Source: Ruegeria aquimaris
Lineage (GTDB): Bacteria > Pseudomonadota > Alphaproteobacteria > Rhodobacterales > Rhodobacteraceae
NCBI RefSeq assembly: GCF_025751555.1
Contig: NZ_JAOWLB010000001.1
Span: 1-64,000, forward strand
DNA: 64,000 nt
Direction of reading: 5' to 3'
Shown in pieces: positions 47,987-54,917 of the stretch; positions within the stretch are counted from its first letter, which is position 1; each line of letters starts with the position of its first letter. The position numbers and the translations under genes were made by a program. Below the pieces are notes generated by a model, which saw only the letters and a list, made by a program, of their open reading frames with translations, searched no databases and had not been told where the DNA came from.

Positions 47987-48928
47987 TCAGCTGACCTTGG
48001 ACATCGAATAGGAAAGTGCCTCGGCACTTTCCACAGCCTTGTCGACCAGGAACAGCGCCTCAAGCTTGTTTGCCGCCTTCAGCGGTACCGTCTCGCCGAC
48101 CCGGAGGGAAACAGATGCCACCTCAGGAACGTCCCGTCCAACTGCCGAAGTAAGAGTCGTCACCTCACCCGCCAGCCTGCGTGAATCAAAGGCCGCATCA
48201 CTGTCCAGAACGACCAGAAACACGCCATTGCCCCAATACGCGGCAAAGTTTCTTGCGCCATCGGTCTTTTCCATGATCGCTTTGCCGGCGAATGACATGG
48301 CGCGCCGGAAATCGGCGGACGATCCTGTCTCGAAAATCCGCTCCGCTTCCTCGACCTTTACCGCCAGAACAGAGCTGTGCAGCGGATGCGCTGTCGAGAT
48401 CTTGAACACATAGTTTTCGAACTCCGGCATGCCAAAACATCCCGGAACGCCGTCGATATATATCGGATCGCTCAGATGGAACTCACGGTCAGACCCGTCC
48501 TGGTCCTGCGCCGCCTCAATCGCCTCCATCGCAAGAATGGCCGATTTCCGTTCAGCCGCCATTCTATAGGCATCGGAAAGCCGCTGGCGAAGGTCGTCGA
48601 ATTCAAAGGGTTTGGTCACGTAATCCGTCGCTCCGGCGTCGAATGCGTGGTCGATATACTGTTTCTGCACCATGGCCGTCACCATGATGACCGGGGTAAA
48701 GCGATAATCCGGAAGCTTGCGGACCTCCTGGCAAAGGTCGATACCGTTCATCTGGGGCATCTGTACGTCAAGCAGCAAGCAGTCAAACGGCTCTGGTTCG
48801 CTGCCCAGAATCTGAAGCGCCGCACGGCCATTGGCGGCCGTGACCACATCGTCATATCCGAACGCGGCCAATATCTGCGTCAGCAGTTCCAGGATGCTGG
48901 GCTCATCGTCTACGGCAAGAATTCGCAT
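47987..48928 (-). CDS. Response regulator with degenerate GGDEF-like output domain (first paralogue)
   Basis: A 313-residue protein. The receiver domain (1-120) is intact: acidic pair Asp-7/Asp-8, Asp-54 as phospho-acceptor, Lys-106 in YVTKPFEF. A charged helix (about 120-145) links to a C-terminal domain ending in a conserved strand YWGNGVFLVVLD. This aligns with the GGDEF loop (RYGGDEF), but the catalytic residues read GNGVF at 233-237, so diguanylate cyclase activity is not expected. The same architecture occurs at 53362-54495. It lies downstream of the autoinducer-synthase-like gene on the same strand. Confidence 0.8.
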   Translation of the reverse strand: MRILAVDDEPSILELLTQILAAFGYDDVVTAANGRAALQILGSEPEPFDCLLLDVQMPQMNGIDLCQEVRKLPDYRFTPVIMVTAMVQKQYIDHAFDAGATDYVTKPFEFDDLRQRLSDAYRMAAERKSAILAMEAIEAAQDQDGSDREFHLSDPIYIDGVPGCFGMPEFENYVFKISTAHPLHSSVLAVKVEEAERIFETGSSADFRRAMSFAGKAIMEKTDGARNFAAYWGNGVFLVVLDSDAAFDSRRLAGEVTTLTSAVGRDVPEVASVSLRVGETVPLKAANKLEALFLVDKAVESAEALSYSMSKVS

Positions 48929-49056
48929 ATTGGTTCACCACCTTTATGGCATCGCTCAGGTTTCCGGGGCGATACGGATATGTATCTGGGTCCGCCTGAA
49001 CAGCGGATCCGGGTCATTTTTACTATTCTTTAGGGAAAAAACGGCAAATTGATGAC

Positions 49057-49108
49057 CCGTAGGTGGCAGGTCCGTGCATTTTCCGCCGACCTCCCGAACC
49101 GTAGGTGG
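49057..49108. repeat. Direct repeat CCGTAGGTGG, two copies 42 bp apart
   Basis: Copies at 49057-49066 and 49099-49108 lie in the 238-bp gap between the synthase-like gene and the downstream response regulator. The spacing is close to four helical turns, which suits a regulator binding site. Nothing else is evident in the gap. Confidence 0.4.
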
Positions 49109-49166
49109 GATGGGCGATCCCGAGATGACCGGGCCACCGTGTCTTTACGATGGACGGGTCCTGGGC

Positions 49167-49925
49167 TCAGCTCAGGTAATTCCGGATATTGAACAGCACC
49201 GGCTGGCTTGCCGCGCCATCAATCGAGAACCTGGGCCCGACAGGCGTGGCGTCCGCGCCGATGCGGCGAGCCCAGCGCGACCACACCGCAGGTACGATGC
49301 CCAGAATGGAAGAGGCACCATTCTGATAGGCCGTCCTTGCCATGCCTTCAAACAGCATGTGCTGAACCGACAGCCTGCGGGCTGCGGGCACCGTCTCCGC
49401 GATGAAAAACCGCGTCGCTTCCCAGACATTGGCTCTGACCGGTGCCTCAAAGAACAGGACATCGGTCGGGATGCTGTCAAGCAGACCTCTTTGGGCATCC
49501 CGCAACATATAGCTGTAGATGCCGCATCTGGCCGTGGTCGGCAGCAACCGCACCCCGCCCACGATCTCGCCGAACTGATGCAGCACGATCCACTGACACG
49601 CGGGCGTGTCGTATTGATCGAACTCCATTCCCCCGGCCTCGGACACATTCCAGTGCAGGGTATCTATGAAGATGGATTTTCGGGCTTCGAGATATTTGGC
49701 AAGAAGCGTTCCATGCTCGTGGATATTGCGAAAGCTCATGACGCTTGACCGGACATTGCCAAGCGGGGACGGCTTCTGAGGCAAGCCGCGCGCAGGCAGG
49801 CGAAACCTGTGTCGCACCCTGCTTTTGGGCGCGATCTCCGCAGAGGCGCCTCCGGTAACCGGCTCCAGCTCCGGAAAAACCGTCGAAGCCAGACTGGCAC
49901 CCGCTAGCCTGAAAGTTTGGTCCAT
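49167..49925 (-). CDS. Acyl-homoserine-lactone synthase-like protein (LuxI family)
   Basis: The C-terminal 190 residues have all LuxI hallmarks: Arg/Phe in ARKSIFIDTLHWNV, the acidic motif EFDQYD, Arg in GGVRLLPTT, and WEATRFFI (usually E-S-R-F). The product would be an acyl-homoserine lactone, made from SAM and an acyl donor. The frame opens 62 residues before the family core. If the ATG at 49739 is the true start, the Arg, Phe and Trp fall at 19, 23 and 29, very near EsaI positions; the longer form has no better ribosome site. No LuxR gene is adjacent. Instead there are a histidine kinase, a P450 and two receiver proteins. Confidence 0.78.
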   Translation of the reverse strand: MDQTFRLAGASLASTVFPELEPVTGGASAEIAPKSRVRHRFRLPARGLPQKPSPLGNVRSSVMSFRNIHEHGTLLAKYLEARKSIFIDTLHWNVSEAGGMEFDQYDTPACQWIVLHQFGEIVGGVRLLPTTARCGIYSYMLRDAQRGLLDSIPTDVLFFEAPVRANVWEATRFFIAETVPAARRLSVQHMLFEGMARTAYQNGASSILGIVPAVWSRWARRIGADATPVGPRFSIDGAASQPVLFNIRNYLS

Positions 49926-50272
49926 GTCCTGCTCTGTCTTTTTGCCACACTTTTGACAAGAACATCCCAGTAAAGTCTATACCTAAGTGAAAGTCCTGTG
50001 CACCCAGAAAAACAGTGTGGCCAATTCGCAAGGAATCTGTGCGCGAATGGCAACGTGCTGATCGGGCAGCACCATGCACCGGCGGCAGGATCGGAGTTCG
50101 GGACCTCACGCCGCTGCCGATAGACGCCTTCCCGCCCCTGCTGGGCGCCCCCAAGCAGCCGCCCCTGTCGAAACCGGCCCGAGCCAGTCAAACTGTGACC
50201 GCATTTCCGGCCCACTGCTTCCTCAATCGGCAGATACCACTGCCGTGATGTCCCCAATGCGCAGTTGGAAAC
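49926..50272. other. Divergent intergenic region between the synthase-like gene and the histidine kinase
   Basis: About 350 bp without a gene. On the synthase side ACACTTTTGACAA (49947-49959) is close to a sequence before the second response regulator (54581-54593). I see no classical lux box and no terminator. Confidence 0.4.
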
Positions 50273-51661
50273 ATGACCGCAATAGACGCAAGGCAGCTTG
50301 ATCAGGTTCCGGAAAAACCCGTCGAGCGGATGCTGCAAAACATGAAGGATTACACTGCCATGAGCTTCGAGCTCATCTGGCAGCGTCAGGCAATTCTGCT
50401 GTCGGCAACCATTCTCACCGGCTATTTCTTCGACTTCTTCAACGCATTGCTGTTCTATTCGTGCATCCTGATTTGCGAGGGGCAGGATCTTATCCTTGCC
50501 AGACGGGTGGCCCGTCTGCGGCCCGATCAGCGCAAGGCGATCTTCGAGTCTCTGGCCTGGATTCTGCTCAATACGGTGCTGCATTCGACCGCCATTTGTC
50601 TTTACGCCATCTCGGTCGCGCTGGCGCAACCGTCTGGCGGGCACTTTACCCCGCTGTTTTTCCTGTTTGCCGCCGCCCTCTTTGCCGCAATGAACAACCA
50701 CCAGATCGTTTGGGCGATGATCCTCCGGCTGACCATGTACGGCATCTCGTTCATGGTGATTGTCGTCGAGGACATCTGGGTCGAACGGCCCGACCTGTCC
50801 TCGGAACTCTGGTTGCACTTCTTCACCGTTGTTTTTGTGATGTATTTCCTGATCGACTGTGCGTTTGTCTTTCTGAGGCTCTACAGAACCAATCTGGCGC
50901 AGCTCGAAAAGCTCAGGGAAGAGCATGAACGCACCAAGGCGGCCTATATTGCGAAATCGCAGTTCGTCTCAACGGTCAGCCACGAGCTTCGCACGCCGCT
51001 GACCTCGATCAAGGGCTCGCTGGACCTGATCAACTCGGGCGCCATCGGCGAAGTCCCGGAAAAGATGCAGGGCCTTGTCGATATGGCCAGTAAGAACAGC
51101 CAACGCCTGGCATCCCTGATCAATGACATCCTGGACATTCAAAAGATGGAAGCCGGAGAGATGGTGTACCGGATCCGGACCGTCGATGTCTGCGCCATCG
51201 TCCAGGAAGCGATTTCCAGCAATCTGGGTTATGCCAGCGCCCATAAGGTCACGATCGAACAGGACTGCCCTGATGAGGGGGATCTGTACATCTCCGCGGA
51301 TGCGTCACGTTTGATACAGGTTCTTTCGAACATGATCTCCAACGCGGCAAAGTTCTCCTCCGAGGGCAGCAGGGTTACCGTCGGCTGCCGTCGGACCGAT
51401 ACCGGCATTCGCATCTATGTCAAAGACCGCGGCATCGGGATTCCGCCCGGAAGCCGGGACAAGGTCTTCGACCGCTTTTCGCAGATCGATTCCTCTGACG
51501 AACGTCATGCCGGCGGAACCGGGCTGGGTATGAACATCTCCAGGGAGATCGTCGAACACTTCGGCGGCATCATCGACTATGAAAGCGAGGTCGGCGTCGG
51601 CTCGGTGTTCTATGTCGAGTTTCCGGAAGTCCGTAAGGTGCCCGATCCCGCAACGGCATGA
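50273..51661 (+). CDS. Membrane-bound sensor histidine kinase
   Basis: A 462-residue kinase. The N-terminal 205 residues hold about six hydrophobic helices with short loops (a MASE-like integral sensor, no PAS). After a coiled coil (LEKLREEHERTKAAY) come HisKA with His-237 (FVSTVSHELRTPLTS) and a full HATPase domain: N-box NMISNAAKFS, DRGIGIPPGSRDKVF, GTGLGMNISREI. There is no attached receiver. The candidate partners are the two response regulators flanking the cluster. A sensor buried in the membrane suits a lipophilic ligand such as an acyl-HSL or fatty acid. Confidence 0.88.
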   Translation: MTAIDARQLDQVPEKPVERMLQNMKDYTAMSFELIWQRQAILLSATILTGYFFDFFNALLFYSCILICEGQDLILARRVARLRPDQRKAIFESLAWILLNTVLHSTAICLYAISVALAQPSGGHFTPLFFLFAAALFAAMNNHQIVWAMILRLTMYGISFMVIVVEDIWVERPDLSSELWLHFFTVVFVMYFLIDCAFVFLRLYRTNLAQLEKLREEHERTKAAYIAKSQFVSTVSHELRTPLTSIKGSLDLINSGAIGEVPEKMQGLVDMASKNSQRLASLINDILDIQKMEAGEMVYRIRTVDVCAIVQEAISSNLGYASAHKVTIEQDCPDEGDLYISADASRLIQVLSNMISNAAKFSSEGSRVTVGCRRTDTGIRIYVKDRGIGIPPGSRDKVFDRFSQIDSSDERHAGGTGLGMNISREIVEHFGGIIDYESEVGVGSVFYVEFPEVRKVPDPATA

Positions 51662-51993
51662 GATCTTCCCCGGTCGGCACGGACCACTTGACCCCGCCAT
51701 GAGCCCGACGCGGGACCTGGGCACAGCCCTGTCGCTGGCGGGAGTGTTGTAGATCAGACTCAACCTCGGCGGCCAATCGCACCGGGCGAATTCCATTGTT
51801 TATCTTCCTGCCGCACGCGGGTTAAGATTCCCACAGGGCCAAGTGGCCCCGCCTTATCGCGGTCTTGCTTACCGTTGTTCGCCGTTAACGCGTGCCGCAA
51901 ATCCAGAAATTGAACCTTGCCCGGCTTTCCTCCCCCGTGGGGGATGCGCGGACAGGCAGGTTTACCTTGGCAGACTCGGTTGGAACTGTGGAA
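51662..51993. other. Intergenic region between kinase and P450 genes
   Basis: About 330 bp. It contains the hairpins GGGCC-AAGT-GGCCC (51836-51849) and TCCCCC-GT-GGGGGA (51931-51944). An open frame continues upstream to a GTG at 51892, so the P450 may start earlier. No clear promoter. Confidence 0.4.
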
Positions 51994-53328
51994 ATGAAAG
52001 ACATCAGCATTGCGCCGGTTTCGGCCAGACTGGCGGAAAAGCCGGTTGGTCTGCTTGATTTTGCGCGATCGGCCGGTCGGAACATGCTTGAGGTGATCCC
52101 GGCGGAGACCCTGCGGCAAACCTATGTCCGCGGGCCGCTGAACATTCACTACTTCTGCGATCCCGAGATGATCACCGAACTGCTGGTTGGCCAGGGCCGG
52201 TCGTTTCCAAAGGCGAAGTTCACCAAGGATATCATCGGATCGGCGGTAGGAAACGGCCTGATCCTGTCCGAGGGTCAGAAGTGGCGTCAACAAAGGCGCC
52301 GCTATTCACCGCTCTTTTCCGCCCGCAACCTGCCCACCCTTTCGGATCACTTCGCCGAAACCGGGATCGAGGTCGCGGACTCGCTGGCCGAAAATCCGGG
52401 GCCCGTCGACTTTGCCCAGGTCGCGCCGGCATCGACCCTCACCAACATCTCTAGGGTCATTTTCTCGGGCAACGAAGAGGTCAGCGCAGAACAGATCCGC
52501 ACGGGTCTGATTTCCTACTTCGACTACATTTCCGACATCTCCCTGTTCGACCTGATGGGATTGCCGAAATGGTTGCCGCGCAAGAAATGGTTCCGCAGCA
52601 AGGCGCCGGTCACGACAATGCGCGACCTGGCGCGGAACGTGATTGACCATCGCCGCGCCGAAAACCGCGACACGCCGCGTGATTTTCTGGACTTCATGAT
52701 CGAAGCGCTGAAAACCGACTTCGAGGATGCCGAAACGACGGTCGACAATCTTCTCACTTTTGTCGTTGCCGGGCACGAAACCTCTGCGAACGCCTTGTGC
52801 TGGGGGTATTATCTTCTGGCCATGCACCCGGAGATGCAGCGCAGAATTCGCAGTGAAATCCTGTCGGTCCGAGACAGCGGCAAGATCCGCTTCGAGGACC
52901 TTGAACACATGCCCTTGCTGCGGGCGCATATCAAGGAAACGCTGCGCCTGTATCCTTCTGCGGCCTTCTTCGCCAGGGATGCGGCCGAGGATATCGAAAT
53001 AAAGGGGATCTCGATCAAGAAGAACGACGCGCTGTTCTTTCCGGTCTATTCATTGCATCGCAACGAGGCCCTGTGGCCCGAACCGGATCATTATCGCCCC
53101 GAACGGTTCCTTGGCGCGCCGCTTCCGCGCGGACAGTACATCCCCTTTGGCGACGGCCCCCGCATCTGCATCGGCGCGCAATATGCCGAAACAGAGATCA
53201 TGATCCTGATGGCATCGCTGCTGCGCCGGGTGAAACTGTCCCTGTCCGACCAGCCATTGCCCGAGCCGGTGCTGACCTTCACCATGCGTACCAGCGGACC
53301 GATGGTCCTGACCGTGGCCCCGGCCTAG
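51994..53328 (+). CDS. Cytochrome P450
   Basis: A 444-residue soluble P450. C-helix WRQQRRRYSP, I-helix oxygen-binding motif AGHETSAN (about 259), ExxR in KETLRLYP (about 315), the PERF-type YRPERF, and the heme loop FGDGPRICIG with Cys-392. The substrate-recognition region resembles fatty-acid or terpene hydroxylases, but no substrate is certain. With a signal-synthase-like gene and kinase next to it, hydroxylation of an acyl chain or of the signal is an attractive guess. Start at 51994 is uncertain; a GTG at 51892 would add 34 residues. Confidence 0.88.
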   Translation: MKDISIAPVSARLAEKPVGLLDFARSAGRNMLEVIPAETLRQTYVRGPLNIHYFCDPEMITELLVGQGRSFPKAKFTKDIIGSAVGNGLILSEGQKWRQQRRRYSPLFSARNLPTLSDHFAETGIEVADSLAENPGPVDFAQVAPASTLTNISRVIFSGNEEVSAEQIRTGLISYFDYISDISLFDLMGLPKWLPRKKWFRSKAPVTTMRDLARNVIDHRRAENRDTPRDFLDFMIEALKTDFEDAETTVDNLLTFVVAGHETSANALCWGYYLLAMHPEMQRRIRSEILSVRDSGKIRFEDLEHMPLLRAHIKETLRLYPSAAFFARDAAEDIEIKGISIKKNDALFFPVYSLHRNEALWPEPDHYRPERFLGAPLPRGQYIPFGDGPRICIGAQYAETEIMILMASLLRRVKLSLSDQPLPEPVLTFTMRTSGPMVLTVAPA

Positions 53329-53361
53329 CCCACCGCAGGTGACGCCTCAACAGGCATGCGC

Positions 53362-54495
53362 TTACTTCTGCGCAAGATAGCTGTCTTCGCCGAAGAGTTC
53401 GAACATCACCCGTTCGTAAACCCGCCTGCGTTCCCGGCCTTGGATCGCGGGTTCGGTCGGGTCGCTTGCCAGGTCATGCGTATCCTCGTCCTTCTGCAAA
53501 GCCTGTTCGCGCTCGTCCACGCTCCGGACCGCCTTGCCAAGCGCGGCCATGGCGCCGGCCTTGGACAGAGACCGCATCGACACCCGATCGCCGATCAGCA
53601 CCCGCAACCACCCGGTCGCGCTGCGGTTCCCGACCAGTGTTCCGAACACCTGGTTCAACCTGTCTTCTGACGGAAGGGCGCCGGTCGCGTCTTTCCCGTG
53701 CGTCACCACCAGGAACACGCCGCTGCCCCTGTACGAGAAGATGGCATTTGCCTCTTTGGTCGTCATCTGGATGGCGCGCGCAAGGTCGGAGACCGCGCGG
53801 CGGAAATCGCCGGATTTGCTGAGATCAAAGAAATACTCGGCATCCTGGATCTTGACCGCGATGACCGACGACTCGAAGAGACGGCCACGGGACAGCTGCT
53901 CGACATAGTTGTCGAACTCGACATAGCGCAGGCACCGGCCCAGACCCTCGATCGAGAACGGATCGTCCAGGTTGAATTGCTGGTTGAAGTCCAGTTCGTC
54001 CTGAAGAAATCTTGCGGACTCCAGTGTCCGTTGCGCTTTCATCCGTTCCTGCATCAGCAGATGAGCGGAGTTGATCCGGCTGCGCAACTCAAGGAAGTCA
54101 AAGGGCTTGCTGACATAATCCGTCGCCCCCTCAAGGAACGCCGCCTCGACATAGTGCCGCTCGGTCATGGCGGTGATCATGATGACAGAGGTTTCACGGT
54201 ACTCTGGCAGCGCGCGTATGCGCCGCAACAGTTCTATGCCGTTCACCTGCGGCATCTGAACGTCCAGCAAGAAGCAATCGAACGGGGTCTCACAGCCCTC
54301 GATCGCGCGGAGCGCACGCTCTGCCGAACTTGCCGTCGAAACCTTGCAGTTGCCGAATGACGTCAACGCCGTTTTCAGCAACTCCAGGATGCTTTCATCG
54401 TCATCGACGATCAAGACCTTGAGCAGTTTCTGCTTCTGCGCGCGCAGTTCCAGCTTCTTTTGAAACTGATCTCTTCCCGGGTTCGAGTGCTTCAT
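53362..54495 (-). CDS. Response regulator with degenerate GGDEF-like output domain (second paralogue)
   Basis: A 377-residue protein built like the one at 47987-48928. After a basic coiled N-terminus (about 27 residues) the receiver has DDD at 31-33, Asp-78 (FLLDVQMPQVNG) and Lys-130 (DYVSKPFDF). The C-terminal domain shares FDNYVEQLSRGRLFESSVIAVKI with the paralogue's ENYVFKISTAHPLHSSVLAVKV and has GSGVF (257-261) in place of GGDEF. A charged C-terminal extension is unique to this copy. It is convergent with the P450. Starts at 54531 or 54552 are possible. Confidence 0.8.
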   Translation of the reverse strand: MKHSNPGRDQFQKKLELRAQKQKLLKVLIVDDDESILELLKTALTSFGNCKVSTASSAERALRAIEGCETPFDCFLLDVQMPQVNGIELLRRIRALPEYRETSVIMITAMTERHYVEAAFLEGATDYVSKPFDFLELRSRINSAHLLMQERMKAQRTLESARFLQDELDFNQQFNLDDPFSIEGLGRCLRYVEFDNYVEQLSRGRLFESSVIAVKIQDAEYFFDLSKSGDFRRAVSDLARAIQMTTKEANAIFSYRGSGVFLVVTHGKDATGALPSEDRLNQVFGTLVGNRSATGWLRVLIGDRVSMRSLSKAGAMAALGKAVRSVDEREQALQKDEDTHDLASDPTEPAIQGRERRRVYERVMFELFGEDSYLAQK

Positions 54496-54842: not shown

Positions 54843-54917
54843 TGGTGGGTGATAAGAGATTTGAACTCCTGACATCTTCGATGTGAACGAAGCGCTCTAC
54901 CACTGAGCTAATCACCC
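54843..54917 (-). tRNA. tRNA-Val (anticodon CAC)
   Basis: A full cloverleaf: acceptor GGGTGAT/ATCACCC, discriminator A and encoded CCA, D-arm GCTC/GAGC, anticodon stem CTTCG/CGAAG with loop TTCACAT, and T-arm AGGAG-TTCAAAT-CTCTT. Anticodon CAC reads GUG. It lies 19 nt after the HU-like gene on the same strand, and could be processed from that transcript. Confidence 0.93.

Follow-up and report, generated by a model that had tools for sequence, protein, structure and literature searches.

The stretch of DNA analysed here, 64,000 nucleotides from Ruegeria aquimaris (contig NZ_JAOWLB010000001.1, positions 1 to 64,000; in the following referred to as the window), contains between positions 47987 and 54495 a block of five genes which code, in this order, for a receiver protein, a LuxI-type synthase, a membrane-bound histidine kinase, a cytochrome P450 and a second receiver protein. 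An earlier reading based on the letters and their translations (hereafter the sequence-only reading) had proposed that these genes form a signalling module in which the synthase is not accompanied by LuxR, the polytopic kinase possesses no receiver of its own and two paralogous receivers lie at the edges. All five open frames exist as claimed and match their Pfam families, no LuxR-type gene is present near the synthase, PF00072 is absent from the kinase, and the two receivers, which share 38% identity, are paralogs. The members of the block are the following:

47987..48928, minus strand: receiver 1, a REC domain (about 1-120; PF00072) followed by a C-terminal GGDEF-fold domain which lacks GG[DE]EF
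49167..49736, minus strand: orphan LuxI-type synthase, I-delta-like (PF00765, 61.3 bits against a family cut-off of 24 bits)
50273..51661, plus strand: histidine kinase with six predicted membrane helices (HisKA 66 bits, HATPase_c 97.7 bits)
51892..53328, plus strand: cytochrome P450, accessory member of the module (PF00067, 259 bits)
53362..54495, minus strand: receiver 2, paralog of receiver 1 (PF00072), a REC domain with a degenerate GGDEF-fold output domain

The frame of the synthase stays open upstream of 49736 up to an ATG at 49925, a possible earlier start, and its nearest relative at hand, from Ruegeria sp. PrR005, is 93% identical. For the P450, an alternative start at 51994, given by a simple gene caller, is possible. 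According to Pfam and to a fold model of the kinase (predicted local distance difference test score, pLDDT, 88.0), its helices span about residues 35-210, followed by HisKA (227-295) and HATPase_c (343-452); the hydropathy profile reveals five peaks in the window kinase alone and six in the family average.

The genome, 5.04 Mb in 61 contigs, contains four LuxR-type genes, none of them near the block and the nearest one on the same contig about 278 kb off, so that the window synthase lacks the adjacent luxR of a LuxI/LuxR quorum sensing pair. Two other luxI matches above the cut-off each have a LuxR-type gene alongside, while one further LuxI-type match scores below it. At C4:110744-115352 of this genome, a weak match to an autoinducer synthase, which at 21 bits remains under the cut-off, has a luxR-type gene at a distance of about 4 kb.

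Linkage to a kinase and exclusion of LuxR

The surroundings of the synthase were compared over the best 80 of 511 relatives found in named genomes, a choice which favours close kin, with up to 10 kb taken on each side. Genes were counted within 7.5 kb of the synthase at the 65 loci which are fully flanked, i.e. which extend at least 7.5 kb in both directions. The kinase is present at 61 of these loci, a receiver at 51, and two or more receivers at 29. Over all 80 loci, incomplete ones and those with the synthase alone included, 31 distinct gene-order strings occur; since proximity to the synthase is retained in spite of such varied order, the linkage goes beyond chance. Conserved synteny in related genomes, which the sequence-only reading had named as a check of its module, is thus found for synthase, kinase and receivers. 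The four fully flanked loci without a kinase are L040 as well as L099, L103 and L108, the latter three with LuxR beside the synthase. In a separate sample of 248 genomes of the family the sensor of the kinase is found in 34, 24 of which contain a LuxI match at most 5 kb away; in a sample of the class, two of 385 genomes match, namely the window's own and another one of its family.

A tree of 123 LuxI sequences, in which a kinase was counted up to 6 kb and LuxR up to 3 kb from the synthase, comprises 73 sequences with a kinase and no LuxR, 43 with LuxR and no kinase, six with neither and one with both, where these counts are not to be taken as frequencies because 40 of the 123 stretches (with a flank of about 3 kb) were chosen mostly for having no nearby kinase. 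A genome-wide search, too, places no kinase beside the LuxR-linked synthases of those 40 stretches. The sole sequence counted with both partners belongs to a separate luxI, which has a luxR to itself and lies several kilobases away from the L058 kinase. As to the sequences with neither, the kinase of L039 lies 6.3 kb off, L056, L073 and L090 are situated near contig ends, and L040 and L173 are without either partner. On this quick tree, supported by the Shimodaira-Hasegawa-like approximate likelihood ratio test (SH-aLRT) only, the partner labels require 10 changes compared to a mean of 41.8 for shuffled labels. This one odd sequence apart, kinase and LuxR are mutually exclusive as neighbours of the synthase. 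The two groups also differ upstream of the synthase proper: the extension of the window synthase (49737-49925, minus strand) carries FPELEP, and FPE[LI] is present at this place in 37 of 73 kinase-linked sequences versus none of 43 LuxR-linked ones.

Exchange of the synthase beside the kinase

Ten of the 34 kinase genomes are without a nearby LuxI match. In five of these a FeeM-type synthase (N-acyl amino acid synthase model PF21926, cut-off 27 bits) and a methyltransferase lie beside the kinase, the latter being ICMT/PEMT-like in G006 and G128 and of class I in G050, G135 and G235. The FeeM-type proteins of L180, L182, L123 and L126 score 122-133 bits and hence belong to this known family, while for L120 and L127 the assignment is by tblastn match only. 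When the 13 kinase stretches without nearby luxI (L120-L132) were searched with the LuxI profile, nothing was obtained, and the FeeM genes there were not flagged either. Conversely, FeeM types are found in six of the 248 family genomes, in five of them beside this kinase; the sixth, G107, gives no kinase match. A GNAT protein beside the kinase of L129 and a PlsC-type acyltransferase beside that of L128, where the latter gene follows a kinase copy (L128:8053-10080), were excluded from the counts of signal synthases.

In 84 genomes of the genus to which the L077 genome (Roseovarius azorensis) belongs, the FeeM model matches above its cut-off in 43, yet above 42 bits in only seven; the remaining, lower-scoring matches are probably other GNAT proteins. 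These seven genomes contain nine FeeM copies (127-146 bits), all of them with a methyltransferase 31-35 bases away and seven with the kinase adjacent. A receiver match is present on every one of the nine stretches, albeit a short one in L204 and L205, and the two copies lacking the kinase are second copies in their genomes, one of them at a contig edge. The same set of FeeM-type synthase, methyltransferase and kinase is carried by plasmids of Loktanella salsilacus and Sulfitobacter. Altogether, 12 plasmid records (Sulfitobacter and Loktanella, L179 included) carry the kinase, and all four examined contain a LuxI- or FeeM-type synthase, which indicates that the module is partly extrachromosomal.

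On the kinase tree, a quick tree with some long branches, the kinases linked to FeeM, 15 in number, fall into two distinct clades, with two changes of partner compared to a mean of 14.1 for shuffled labels. The clade linked to the ICMT-like enzyme is placed inside a group of 30 kinases (27 LuxI-linked, three FeeM-linked; support 99) to which the window kinase also belongs. A FeeM-type synthase with a methyltransferase as partner of this kinase on two separate branches is new with respect to the literature searched. As judged from gene content, the swapping of synthases strongly suggests that the kinase senses the signal. Over 55 kinases the mean pairwise identity amounts to 0.51 in the sensor and 0.57 in the ATPase domain; a sensor nearly as conserved as the ATPase domain is, in this within-family comparison, what would be expected of a kinase that reads one class of ligand.

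In L126, a luxR-type gene (L126:6531-7193; genome G050) directly follows a FeeM-linked kinase, making this a kinase locus with LuxR. A fusion of LuxR and kinase, considered for this locus, was rejected, as the long reading frame is that of a separate luxR gene, located after the kinase gene and read in a different frame.

Receiver outputs and surroundings of the block

Pfam misses the output domain in both window receivers. A fold model was made for receiver 1 only, as full-length protein (pLDDT 86.4), and Foldseek matches it over its whole length to WspR, DgcR and PleD (for WspR, TM-score 0.39 and E 1.9e-16 across 325 columns). Superposed from end to end, the structures fit only loosely (TM-score about 0.4, root-mean-square deviation about 25), which we read as the two domains being differently set relative to each other, and the rows listed by a second aligner are nearly all receiver domains. 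In addition, a profile of 65 relatives aligns to the GGDEF region of PleD, placing YRGxGxF opposite YGGEEF. Fold and profile thus both assign receiver 1 a PleD/WspR-like architecture, in which, as in PleD, WspR and DgcR, REC is followed by a GGDEF fold over the whole length.

In contrast to these proteins, none of the 65 aligned receivers, both window receivers included, contains GG[DE]EF, and an active diguanylate cyclase output was therefore rejected. Instead, Y.G.G.F is present in 52 of 65, RxxD right before the motif position in three sequences, and the Pfam GGDEF model matches three of 65, weakly (best E 0.017). D54, T84 and K106 of the REC domain are conserved in all 65, again including both window receivers, while the mean pairwise identity drops from 0.49 in REC to 0.24 in the output domain. 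To judge from these sequences, the receivers look phosphorylatable, with an inactive, fast-evolving GGDEF-fold output. Because the fold persists without the catalytic motif, the outputs probably bind a partner rather than make cyclic di-GMP, in which they presumably resemble PopA of Caulobacter.

A further block recurs near the module. It consists of a Ser/Thr kinase, an FHA protein, a PP2C phosphatase, two dynamin-like GTPases, a small protein and a further protein without Pfam match, and is present in part or as a whole, in both orientations, at 17 of 80 loci (L058:465-9593 and 16 of L035-L114). The large dynamin is encoded in 59 of 248 family genomes. Of the 34 genomes with the kinase, 15 contain it (Fisher p = 0.004), and in six genomes it lies at most 10 kb from luxI. 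This block is a possible output of the module; a search of the window's genome for the dynamin and the FHA protein gave no match.

The GC content of the five-gene block is 0.584, below that of most of the window, although some other stretches of the window are equally low, and a tRNA-Val gene (54843-54917) is located about 350 bases beyond the block's end. Low GC and a nearby tRNA gene might be those of an acquired island. The flanking LacI and TRAP genes have close matches in L035 alone among the 80 loci, and perfect CtrA-like sites (TTAA-N7-TTAA) were sought in the window with zero hits.

Proposed signalling and comparison with known systems

We consider it likely that the block and its relatives constitute a quorum-sensing-like two-component module whose kinase senses lipophilic N-acyl signals and whose synthase and tailoring enzymes are exchangeable. 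The LuxI-type enzyme would join an acyl chain, supplied as acyl-ACP (acyl carrier protein), to S-adenosylmethionine, giving an N-acyl-homoserine lactone (AHL), probably a long-chain one. The P450, where present, may oxidise the acyl chain, or the fatty acid from which it derives, and thereby render the signal more private. The signal would enter the membrane and bind there to the six helices of the kinase, which would then phosphorylate or dephosphorylate the aspartate of both receivers, whose outputs probably act through partner binding. The interpretation given in the sequence-only reading, according to which the synthase makes an acyl signal, the P450 hydroxylates it or its precursor, the kinase senses it and the receivers relay it, is thus partly supported.

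Several observations weigh against this view, beginning with the preference for close kin in the locus set. At 11 of the 61 kinase loci, a receiver match longer than 200 residues is absent from the surrounding 7.5 kb. In five of the 34 kinase genomes (G159, G212, G169, G182 and G208) neither type of synthase lies beside the kinase, G159 being limited to a 5 kb contig and G212 split over contigs, and G241 and G202 contain an additional kinase copy without adjacent synthase. Moreover, the 50 matches listed by Foldseek for the kinase all align to its cytoplasmic part, one of them, BceS, over 343 columns; the listed structures thus bear on the kinase core and not on the fold of the sensor or its possible likeness to that of LuxN. 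Finally, most loci are without the P450, and in three of the seven genomes encoding a close relative of it the gene lies 13 kb from luxI, 2.2 Mb off on the same contig and on another contig, respectively.

These last points favour the alternative that the P450 stands outside signal making, as a fatty-acid or terpenoid hydroxylase which merely travels with the block, and the solved P450s closest to it, a mixed set, are compatible with this. On the other hand, the kinase is present at every one of the 20 fully flanked loci (of 65) that include a P450. A P450 at least 58% identical to that of the window is encoded in seven of the 248 family genomes, all of them among the 34 kinase genomes (Fisher p = 5e-7, relatedness uncorrected), while other P450 matches in this search reach at most 39% identity. 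It sits in the block in four of the seven, and on a Sulfitobacter plasmid synthase, kinase and P450 (59% identical) follow each other in a row. The family is furthermore described to produce oxidised signals: MOLA 401 (Rhodobacteraceae) makes poly-hydroxylated AHLs, for which P450 oxidation was proposed in 2017 (PMC5479921), and a 16-hydroxy form of the N-acyl alanine methyl esters (NAMEs) is reported (PMC6296433). We hold a role of the P450 outside signal making to be possible, if rather doubtful; its membership of the module, as claimed in the sequence-only reading, holds for a subset of loci and does not extend to the majority. In Ruegeria marina (L036:12210-12590) only short P450-like pieces are found between kinase and receiver, likely a case of P450 loss.

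It appears unlikely that the kinase senses something else, such as membrane state or fatty acids, with the synthase as its transcriptional target and proximity serving co-regulation only. Such an arrangement would agree with the kinase copies lacking a nearby synthase and with the location of kinase and synthase on opposite strands in many loci. It would hardly be expected, however, to bring a single sensor family together with synthases of two unlike families and with three kinds of tailoring enzyme (the P450, the class I and the ICMT/PEMT-like methyltransferase), nor to leave LuxR and kinase without a shared synthase, the odd sequence apart. That the LuxI-like enzyme makes an N-acyl product other than an AHL, as its distant solved relatives (best E 7.5e-12) and the FeeM-type enzymes in the same slot of other loci might suggest, is quite improbable, as all eight catalytic LuxI residues (R, F, W, D, D, R, E, R; a list which we take to be the conserved set) are intact in 73/73 kinase-linked sequences, just as in the LuxR-linked ones, where a single residue differs in 1/43. 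The LuxR-linked branch would be the one that holds the published AHL makers.

With the kinase as signal receptor, the FeeM-type variants suggest a link to known compounds. NAMEs and related esters, which were inactive on LuxR-type receptors in reporter assays, have been obtained from Roseovarius tolerans EL-164, Roseovarius sp. D12_1.68 and Loktanella F13, F14 and D3 (PMC6296433). Candidate NAME synthase genes had not been found according to a paper of 2024, in whose reference list FeeM appears (PMC11580390), and the genome paper on EL-164 assigns its AHLs two LuxI/LuxR pairs (PMC4582587). The set of FeeM-type synthase and methyltransferase is found in Loktanella salsilacus and in the genus of the L077 genome, i.e. 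in the same two genera as the NAME producers, and together with the kinase these genes could be what a NAME pathway needs. Against such an assignment, the link to the producers is by genus only, and the set is also present in Sulfitobacter and other genera, for which we found no NAME report; close FeeM matches on plasmid records are from Sulfitobacter only. The GC content of the FeeM stretches (53-63%, compared to 63.9% in EL-164) is uninformative on the producer link. We give even chances to the wider proposal that the six-helix kinases of Rhodobacteraceae read lipophilic N-acyl amino acid derivatives, with synthase and tailoring enzymes swapped, and that the FeeM set represents NAME biosynthesis together with its receptor. 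The inactivity of NAMEs on LuxR reporters would then follow from their being received by a kinase.

If the proposed module is real, an abundant group of marine bacteria would possess a second, kinase-based route of AHL-type communication, and a single receptor family could follow its synthase through changes in chemistry. The swapped enzyme in related bacteria hints at candidate genes, and at a possible receptor, for a puzzling class of marine bacterial compounds, a question which expression of two or three genes in E. coli could address.

The statement of the sequence-only reading that no such system had been described is partly wrong, since orphan luxI genes beside histidine kinases were reported from roseobacters in 2013 and compared to LuxN (Cude and Buchan, PMC3824088), and P450 oxidation of AHLs has been proposed as mentioned above. 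In that paper seven genomes show the topologies H, I and J, with LuxI lacking an adjacent LuxR and a histidine kinase upstream. The window agrees with these I-delta cases in the absent luxR, the adjacent histidine kinase and the synthase group. Ruegeria sp. TW15 (L049) and Roseovarius nubinhibens ISM (L104), strains of the 2013 paper, are kinase-linked in our set as well, the correspondence being at strain level. The term P450 is absent from its main text, and in the portions available to us nothing is found on synthase swapping or receiver outputs; its figure legend lists HK, HK/RR, HK/REC and 2CRS, so that the figure may draw neighbouring receivers (PMC3824088). In the literature searched, which left most subscription papers and all preprints aside, synthase swapping and the FeeM-kinase set were found undescribed. 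These variants, the degenerate GGDEF output and the exclusion of LuxR had not been covered by the sequence-only reading.

More distant counterparts are LuxM/LuxN and CqsA/CqsS of Vibrio, whose synthases belong to other families, and PhcB of Ralstonia, which is paired with PhcS. The Vibrio systems likewise combine a small-molecule synthase with a polytopic histidine kinase, but LuxN, LuxQ and CqsS are hybrid kinases (PMC8895600), whereas the window kinase has no fused receiver and the outputs here are degenerate GGDEF domains. PhcS is a histidine kinase which senses a lipophilic methyl ester (PMC11960443), and the variants with FeeM-type synthase and methyltransferase would resemble it, although the Ralstonia pair differs in that its signal is a fatty-acid methyl ester and no N-acyl synthase is involved.

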